Below are positions 8,668 through 10,512 of a stretch of DNA of 39,640 nt, in pieces. How positions within the stretch are numbered: position 1 is the first letter of the stretch; the number at the start of each line of letters is the position of its first letter. The translations under genes and the position numbers were made by a program. Under the pieces are notes generated by a model. It ran no database searches. It was not told the DNA's origin and was given only the letters and a program-made list of their open reading frames with translations. The stretch comes from Pseudomonadota bacterium. GTDB lineage: Bacteria > Pseudomonadota > Alphaproteobacteria > UBA9655. The stretch lies in assembly GCA_018242065.1 (NCBI GenBank), contig JAFECQ010000001.1:1-39640 (forward strand). The letters are read 5' to 3'.

Positions 8668-9657
8668 TTGAATTGTAAAATTCGCGAATTTATAAGCAAC
8701 AAATATTTTCTATACTCTCTTATTTCTATTTTTATCTTACTTACTTTTTTCTTTATAAGCATTGCTTATTGGTTTCAGCATCCTCAAAAAAACAACAGCA
8801 CTATTATCCTAATTCAAAAAGGGGCTTCTCTTTCTCAAATCACAAAAATTCTGACGCAGCAACATCTCTTAAACTTTCCCATTTACTTTAAAGGAATTCT
8901 TTATGGCACAGGAGGCTGGCGACAACTTAAAGCCGGAGAGTATGTGATCCCGCCTGCCGTCACTCCTGCTCAATTAATACACATTTTAAAATCAGGGAAT
9001 GTCATTCTGCATCCCATCAGTCTTATCGAAGGTGAGACCTCTTACCATCTTACACAGAGACTAGGACAAGACTCCCGTTTTGATGGAATTTGTGAAGTTT
9101 CTGCTGAGGGAAGTCTTCTACCAGAAACCTACCATTTTCCGCGAGGAACTGCGCGTCAAAAGATTGTGGAACGAATGCAAGCATCCATGCAGAGTTTATT
9201 GACTAACGTATGGGCACAACGATCTTCAGATCATCCTTTAAAGACACCGCAAGAGCTGGTAATACTCGCCTCCATTATTGAAAAAGAAACGTCCCTTTCT
9301 AAAGAAAGGCCTATTGTTGCAGCCGTATTTTTAAATCGCCTCAAACAAGGAATGCCCTTACAAGCAGATCCAACGATCATTTACGCTCTTACAAAAGGCG
9401 AAAGGGACTTAATGCGTGATCTTACCCGGGAAGATCTGGTTTTTGAAAGCCCCTATAATACTTACCTTAATCTGGGCCTTCCCCCCTCTCCCATTGCCAA
9501 TCCTGGGTGTGATTCTTTAAAAGCTGCAGCCAATCCTGCAAACGTCTCCTACCTTTATTTTGTAGCTGATGGCACTGGCGGCCATATTTTTGCAACCTCT
9601 CTAGAAGAACATCAAAAGAACCACGCTCACTGGCGGAAGGTACGAGATAAAAGATGA
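8668..9657 (+). CDS. mltG: Endolytic murein transglycosylase MltG
   Basis: MltG is anchored in the inner membrane and cuts nascent glycan strands in the periplasm, setting their length. The protein has one N-terminal membrane segment (YSLISIFILLTFFFISIAYW), a LysM-like region, then the YceG catalytic domain with the predicted catalytic E205 in ASIIEKETS, plus ADPTIIYAL and YNTYLNLGLPPSPIANPG. TTG 8668, immediately after the fabF stop, gives 329 residues, the usual family length. An in-frame ATG at 8578 would overlap fabF by 89 bp and add a 30-residue extension; I think it less likely. The last 36 bp of the gene belong to a 57-bp sequence repeated at 10456-10512. Confidence 0.9.
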   Translation: MNCKIREFISNKYFLYSLISIFILLTFFFISIAYWFQHPQKNNSTIILIQKGASLSQITKILTQQHLLNFPIYFKGILYGTGGWRQLKAGEYVIPPAVTPAQLIHILKSGNVILHPISLIEGETSYHLTQRLGQDSRFDGICEVSAEGSLLPETYHFPRGTARQKIVERMQASMQSLLTNVWAQRSSDHPLKTPQELVILASIIEKETSLSKERPIVAAVFLNRLKQGMPLQADPTIIYALTKGERDLMRDLTREDLVFESPYNTYLNLGLPPSPIANPGCDSLKAAANPANVSYLYFVADGTGGHIFATSLEEHQKNHAHWRKVRDKR

Positions 9658-9678
9658 GCATTGAGACTTTTTTATATA
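9622..9678 (+). repeat. Direct repeat copy 1 (intact mltG 3' end)
   Basis: This 57-bp stretch, holding the last codons and stop of mltG plus 21 bp beyond, recurs at 10456-10512 in the same orientation with only three mismatches. The two copies bracket the hepT/mntA module. The arrangement looks like insertion at the 3' end of mltG with that end duplicated. Confidence 0.9.
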
Positions 9679-9712
9679 ATAAGAACAGCTACCTTTTATT
9701 CATTTATTATTG

Positions 9713-10086
9713 TCATTTTTGTGAAGATAGTTGCTCGTATATTTCTTGAATTTTCTTTTGTAATTCTGGGATATCTTTTTCAAGAGTTCTCCAAACAAGC
9801 TCTAAGTCTACAGAAAAATAACCATGTGACACTCGATTGCGCATCCAATAAATATCACTCCACGGAATTTCTGAGTGTTTAGCAGTAAAATGTGGATAGT
9901 AACGATCTACATTACGGGATGCCCTCGCCAATGATCTCAATGTTACGAAGGACAGCATCTTGAATAAGTTCACTTTGAAGAAAAGCAATCTCAGTTAGAT
10001 CGTCTGTATAGTGATTTATCCGTCTGATAGCCGTTAGAAGGTGTTCAAGATAATTGAGCACATAGGAGCTTAGATTCTTTGCTCAT
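9713..10086 (-). pseudogene. hepT: HepT-type toxin (DUF86/HEPN), frameshifted
   Basis: HepT is a HEPN-domain RNase toxin that MntA neutralises by AMPylation. Reading the minus strand from ATG 10086, the first frame stops after 13 codons. The next frame gives a good HepT N-terminus (YVLNYLEHLL, FLQSELIQDAVLRNIEIIGE) and stops at about 9925. The third frame resumes with ASRNVDRYYP and carries the catalytic R-x4-H motif RNRVSH followed by GYFSVDLELVW. Two frame changes are needed: one in the first 20 bp, and one at GAGGGCATCC, where dropping one G restores the reading frame. The start overlaps the mntA stop as ATGA, the normal order in this family. The toxin is probably dead unless these are sequencing errors. 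Confidence 0.85.
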
Positions 10087-10373
10087 ATAGACTTAGCTTC
10101 TTTTAAAATTTGCTTGCGAAATTGTTCTGGTAAAGCTCTAGGTGTGAGAACATCAACGGGAACCCCTAGCAAAACTTGCAATCGATTTTGAATTCTCGCG
10201 ATATCCATTAAGGTTGTTTCCAATGTTGGATCAACAAGCAAATCTAAATCACTATTATCGGTGTCGTCCCCATGCAAAACTGAACCAAAAACCCGAACAT
10301 TGCAAGCGTGGTTCTCTTTAACAATGCGCCTGATAGCTTGCCTATGTGAATCAAGTGCTCGCGAAGGTCTCAT
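10083..10373 (-). CDS. mntA: MntA-type nucleotidyltransferase antitoxin
   Basis: MntA proteins are minimal nucleotidyltransferases that inactivate HepT by adding AMP to a tyrosine near its active site. This 96-residue protein keeps the complete G-S-x10-D-x-D motif: GS, ten residues, then DLD, followed by LLVD. ATG 10373 lies 8 bp after AAGGAAG; an in-frame ATG at 10391 is the alternative and sits upstream of that site. The antitoxin reads through intact while its partner toxin is frameshifted, the expected order of decay because losing the antitoxin first would be harmful. Confidence 0.88.
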   Translation of the reverse strand: MRPSRALDSHRQAIRRIVKENHACNVRVFGSVLHGDDTDNSDLDLLVDPTLETTLMDIARIQNRLQVLLGVPVDVLTPRALPEQFRKQILKEAKSI

Positions 10374-10455
10374 GTTGATTTCTTCCTTCATAACTGCAAC
10401 AAGAAATTATTATATAACATCATCTTATGTGTGTCATTAAAATGTCTAAAGACAT

Positions 10456-10512
10456 CACGCTCACTAGCGGAAGGTTCGAGATAAAAGATGAACATTGAGA
10501 CTTTTTTATATA
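10456..10512 (+). repeat. Direct repeat copy 2 (mltG 3' end remnant)
   Basis: Three mismatches in 57 bp separate this from 9622-9678. Read in the mltG frame it gives HAH-stop-RKVRDKR-stop, with the tryptophan codon TGG changed to TAG, so it is a non-functional copy of the MltG C-terminus. It closes the right side of the hepT/mntA module and probably marks the original sequence downstream of mltG. Confidence 0.9.

Follow-up and report, generated by a model that had tools for sequence, protein, structure and literature searches.

The 3' end of mltG in the alphaproteobacterial genome studied here is followed by a mntA-hepT toxin-antitoxin (TA) operon and then by an orphan copy of the same gene end, and this arrangement very probably represents a mobile, stand-alone mntA-hepT islet, one case of a class that recurs in the genus and in which TA operons lie between a gene end and an orphan copy of it. 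The two direct repeats, the content of the insert, the change of locus of the operon within the genus, the recurrence of the arrangement and its excess over non-TA genes can be read directly from the genomes, and are described below together with the routes by which such an islet may have been inserted. The window, that is, the whole stretch of 39,640 nucleotides that was analysed, is the entire contig C11 of a draft genome (G000) of 1.9 Mb in 45 contigs.

A TA operon between two copies of the mltG end

The repeat search of the window recovered two direct repeats of 57 nt with three mismatches (54/57), located at exactly 9622-9678 and 10456-10512 as the preliminary description of this DNA had claimed, and by chance alone the whole window would yield about 2e-18 pairs of this quality. 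Gapped extension of the repeat yielded a weak further match on the left (62/68), whereas inverted repeat pairs at the ends of the insert were not found by the search of the window. As had been proposed, copy 1 leaves mltG intact, as seen from its open reading frame and its match to PF02618, and copy 2 carries a stop in place of a tryptophan codon (Table 1). A search of the genome detected no third copy of the repeat, the mltG-end pair being unique in it; a dispersed repeat family was ruled out, since the genome has two copies only.

Between the repeats there is nothing but a minus-strand mntA-hepT operon with its promoter, with about 13-20 bp separating the start of the promoter from the orphan repeat, and 35 bp separating the end of hepT from copy 1. 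Neither an integrase, whose absence had been pointed out earlier, nor a transposase is present in the insert, and the 57-bp repeat is well outside the 2-14 bp of the target repeats of insertion sequences and composite transposons. MntA contains the GS-X10-DXD motif (GSVLHGDDTDNSDLD) and scores 39.6 bits against NF047752, under the NCBIfam equivalog cut-off of 60. The RNRVSHGY motif of HepT conforms to R-X4-6-H, and hepT matches PF01934 with 5.2e-26 if it is read across a frameshift, giving otherwise two separate matches. This frameshift, which was missed in the first reading of the window, results from one extra base near 9934 with respect to the homologues, and could be due either to decay or to a sequencing error; with it, the window lacks the intact toxin frame of a HepT/MntA pair, the hepT homologues of three congeners being intact and 122-124 aa long.

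Table 1. Features of the mltG locus in the window, and repeats spanning other inserts in the same genome (G000) and in other genomes
Feature	Genome, contig or locus	Coordinates	Strand	Repeat	Insert or remarks
mltG (YceG/MltG family), intact target gene	Window	8578..9657	+		ORF; PF02618 1.4e-78
Repeat copy 1 (native)	Window	9622..9678	+		Final 36 nt of mltG with stop, and 21 nt beyond
hepT toxin gene	Window	9713..10078	-		HEPN, RNRVSHGY motif; two partial frames, frameshift near 9934 (GGCGAGGGCATCC)
mntA antitoxin gene	Window	10083..10391	-		Minimal nucleotidyltransferase, GS-X10-DXD; PF18765 and PF01909
Probable mntA promoter	Window	10409..10437	-		ATGACA-17-TATAAT; about 19 bp from repeat copy 2
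Repeat copy 2 (orphan mltG end)	Window	10456..10512	+		TGG>TAG, GTA>GTT, one change past the stop
First gene downstream of the islet	Window	10538..11017	-		159 aa, without Pfam match
parC end	G000, C10			39/44	Xre/Fic pair (mobile mystery A/B)
aas-like gene end	G000, C26			40/43	Phd/PIN; gene with MFS, acyltransferase and AMP-binding domains
apaG end	G000, C4			45/49	TacA/GNAT
Probable sdhB 3' end	G000, C33 (L170)	180635-180675 and 181113-181153		38/41	440-bp insert without recognisable gene
Region upstream of gyrB	G000			41/42	Around a secreted-protein gene; non-TA or unclear
tpiA	G000			35/39	Around a secreted-protein gene; non-TA or unclear
GIY-YIG gene after MazEF	G000, C6 (L109)	6116-6138 and 6670-6692		23/23	Between identical 23-bp copies of the adjoining gene's end
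HigBA and a large gene	G000, C20 (L073)	4055-7601			Between three copies of part of a polymorphic-toxin-like gene
Phd/PIN	G012			76 bp	Intergenic repeat
YefM/YoeB	G001			43 bp	Intergenic repeat
TacA/GNAT	G006			54 bp	Orphan; module beside pirin, on its 5' side
HicAB (named from sequence)	G011			59 bp	
MntA/HepT	G071 (another family of the class)			189 bp	Orphan of the neighbour's 3' part

Relatives of the operon at other loci

The nearest relatives of the operon, with 77-79% DNA identity, were found in three congeners at two other loci, namely behind an ABC-F-like gene in G009 and beside a Rrf2-type regulator and an iscS-like gene in G010 and G013 (names of neighbours taken from reading of the sequences). 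As these relatives occupy different loci, the operon must have moved from one place to another within the genus. Their homology to the window module extends at most from 10443, a position reached by the module of G010, to 9707, thus covering the promoter and the two genes. The preliminary description had contemplated that the module could be the scar of a larger island, but in the alignment with the three homologous modules only the operon and its promoter fall between the repeats, so that no scar of a larger island is visible and that possibility was rejected.

No spanning repeat was found around the relatives in G009, G010 and G013, which indicates that the repeat does not belong to the module itself. 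Two observations had been named in advance as telling against an insertion, relatives carrying both repeat copies but lacking the module, and the module without the repeats; no relative of the former kind was found, whereas the latter is the situation in these three genomes. On the other side of the comparison, those congeners for which the sequence downstream of mltG was inspected have a single mltG end, and their downstream genes differ from those of the window. This single end, seen at the level of congeners, together with the lack of an integrase or transposase in the insert and the same geometry at parC, the aas-like gene and apaG, supports the earlier proposal of an insertion at the 3' end of a gene with regeneration of that end. 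In a search of plasmids, the MntA relatives were at most 70% identical in protein, and therefore do not represent a direct source.

Recurrence in the genome, in the genus and beyond

The 1,891,203 bases of the genome, reassembled from stretches, were scanned for direct repeats located 250-4000 bp apart. Most of the matches corresponded to repeat proteins and tandem paralogues, which were set aside, and the clearest among the remaining ones consisted of a gene end and, on the other side of a small insert, an orphan copy of that end (Table 1; parC, apaG, sdhB, tpiA and gyrB were named by reading the sequences). The insert at the sdhB end is perhaps a decayed islet. The HigBA case, whose repeat is a gene-internal copy, was left out of the main list because polymorphic-toxin-like genes swap ends by recombination.

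Some other repeats were noted in the genome. On contig C5, 2 kb of small genes lie between the copies of a direct repeat of 39 bp (36/39) with similarity to a tRNA 3' end (L106, 10075-10113 and 12074-12112). In the window, a biotin carboxylase gene (29104-30462, minus strand) has a 48-bp copy of its 3' end (43/48; 27470-27517 and 29110-29157), which sits between the tandem paralogous genes 26113-27357 and 27659-29026.

Comparable cases were found in congeners and outside the genus. In G003, mltG and hemF are separated by a different hepT/mntA pair (MntA 34% identical), whose far side bears 32 bp copied from the coding sequence of hemF, and this mltG-hemF neighbourhood is empty in G010, with 80 bp between the stops versus 730 in G003. 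Phd/PIN modules of one family are found at two loci, in the genome of the window and in G012, each within its own repeat. The parC and apaG ends are single in congeners, and in G001 a TacA/GNAT module is found behind apaG without a repeat, which might illustrate how a donor looks. The orphans of hemF, sdhB, tpiA and the G071 neighbour end short of the stop of the gene.

Repeats spanning the locus were observed for 7 of 50 TA loci of the genus versus 13 of 793 small non-TA genes (Fisher p = 7e-5), the p value being approximate because the HepT modules were selected by hand and the control was taken from a single genome. The TA loci had been collected through their protein families, without regard to repeats, and the spanned ones were distributed as 2 of 30 in the Phd set, 3 of 12 in the TacA search and 2 of 8 in the HepT set, which consists of eight distinct modules that we picked out of 21 loci on the basis of score and open frame; the control comprised small non-TA genes of the genome of the window only. 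Exclusion of the HicAB case leaves 6 of the 50 TA loci (p = 5e-4). Outside the genus such repeats are rare, with 1 spanned locus out of 56, and a class-wide TacA search found none at 28 loci.

Divergence between the copies and possible routes of insertion

Over the nine cases with coding repeats, 29 codons differ synonymously between the copies and 16 nonsynonymously. Simulations in which the orphan drifted freely and the native copy took silent changes only resulted in 37-44% synonymous differences, a share of 64% or higher being reached in 0.6% of the runs at most, and the p value of the synonymous excess was about 0.003-0.006 with transition bias. The individual cases vary, the ratio of synonymous to nonsynonymous differences being 4:0 for apaG, 3:1 for parC, 5:1 for pirin, 13:7 for G071, and 0:2 for both the aas-like gene and sdhB. 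In the window, the three differences (one nonsense, one synonymous and one noncoding) provide no pointer to a donor, and the pirin orphan of G006 shows 6-7 differences from the pirin gene of each of four species, its own and three congeners, and so speaks neither for a donor nor for its own gene as the origin. These figures suggest that in several cases both copies were coding when they separated, and the synonymous excess fits donor DNA bearing a homologous gene end better than a copying of the target of the recipient.

We infer from this, as the most likely route, an insertion by additive recombination carried out by the host, and would give this specific route about an even chance. The mntA-hepT operon very probably entered beside mltG without a recombinase of its own, leaving the 3' end of mltG in two direct copies. 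In the route favoured here, DNA from a related cell would arrive, as a circle or as a fragment, with the TA operon attached to the homologous end of a gene, and the incoming end would recombine with the resident one either in a Campbell-like single crossover or through one-sided homology and an illegitimate junction. The target gene would thus be kept intact, and the resident or the incoming end would remain as an orphan and then decay, while addiction to the toxin may help insertions of TA operons to persist. RecA (window 18967-19998) and DprA are present in the genome, and none of four ComEC candidates tested was confirmed. Because some orphans end short of the gene stop, and because in G006 the TA module is found 5' of pirin, additional deletions or different routes would also be required.

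Since the divergence of the copies is coding-like but not uniform, additive host recombination is favoured only to the extent just stated, and its main rival is a long target duplication, in which staggered breaks tens of bases apart would be filled in by copying the recipient's own sequence, drift separating the copies later on. Such duplications, of the order of 100 bp, are reported for restriction-modification systems in PMC3874152 and PMC1643837, and they would account for the X-R-insert-R-Y geometry of mltG, apaG and parC, and nearly for that of the aas-like gene. This second route nevertheless appears less probable to us, given the synonymous excess between copies and the orphans that end before the end of the gene, which do not fit it without further deletion.

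It could also be the case that a TA operon was cleanly placed behind the gene, that gene end and operon were duplicated in tandem, and that the second operon was then deleted. Tandem duplications, with remnants of gene ends lying between the paralogues, do exist in the same genome (window 27470-27517/29110-29157 and contig C2 24383-24423/26948-26988), and the TacA/GNAT module behind apaG in G001 without a repeat is what the starting state would resemble, but neither a second operon nor a remnant of one is found behind the orphan of the window, and two events would have to be assumed at each of several loci, so that we consider this succession of events unlikely. An island inserted by an integrase, with mltG ends as attachment sites, and later trimmed to the TA pair would agree with an insertion that regenerates the 3' end of the gene, and 57 bp is within the size range of attachment-site cores. 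It is, however, very improbable, as the insert contains no integrase and matches the homologous operons and nothing beyond, and the repeats of the other cases are unrelated in sequence. Finally, although the genome is a draft in 45 contigs, an assembly artefact is scarcely credible, since the copies differ from each other, both are well inside one contig, and the pattern is seen in several independent genomes.

Relation to known systems

Insertion with long target duplication was described by Nobusato et al. 2000 and Furuta et al. 2010, as cited in PMC1643837, PMC3031569 and PMC3874152, the last of which refers to insertion of restriction-modification systems with target duplications that are long and variable, on the scale of 100 bp; the insertion work is also cited in a TA review (PMC2654758), where both types of system are compared. 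The cases presented here share with those insertions a selfish addiction-type gene pair, the absence of a mobile element and long, variable direct repeats of the target. They differ in that the cargo consists of TA operons of several families (HepT/MntA in the window) found mostly at gene 3' ends, in that the copies have diverged like coding sequences, and in that the repeats are shorter, mostly 23-76 bp with one of 189.

Additive host recombination, on the other hand, resembles homology-facilitated illegitimate recombination, which has been put forward to explain the addition of T6SS effector-immunity pairs (PMC5361080), and has been shown in transformable bacteria and, at low frequency, in E. 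coli conjugation (PMC3240628). Common to both would be a homologous anchor on one side, an illegitimate joint on the opposite one and an orphan of the resident gene that is left behind; in contrast, the process is deduced here from sequence comparison, the anchors are ends of housekeeping genes, and a TA operon of type II or type VII is what they deliver. With regard to the type VII HepT/MntA systems themselves, the window pair has the GS-X10-DXD of MntA, the R-X4-H of HepT and the order mntA-hepT, but departs from them in its frameshifted hepT and in a MntA score below the equivalog cut-off.

The findings bear on the question of how chromosomal TA pairs pass from one genome to another when neither transposons nor integrases are involved. 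The open-access literature searched contained no report of this footprint for TA pairs, which is weak evidence that none exists. Here several unrelated TA families of one genus bear the same footprint, and any collection of strains can be screened for it. We tentatively put forward that operons of unrelated TA families may be spread as islets without a recombinase, each carrying or duplicating the end of the gene behind which it sits; host recombination with that gene in another strain would insert them additively and leave the gene intact, and gene ends would thus act as general docking sites for addiction modules. The coding-like divergence of the copies makes the route of recombination with donor sequence testable, and with this finding the 'long target duplication' route of the restriction-modification systems would be broadened to include TA pairs.
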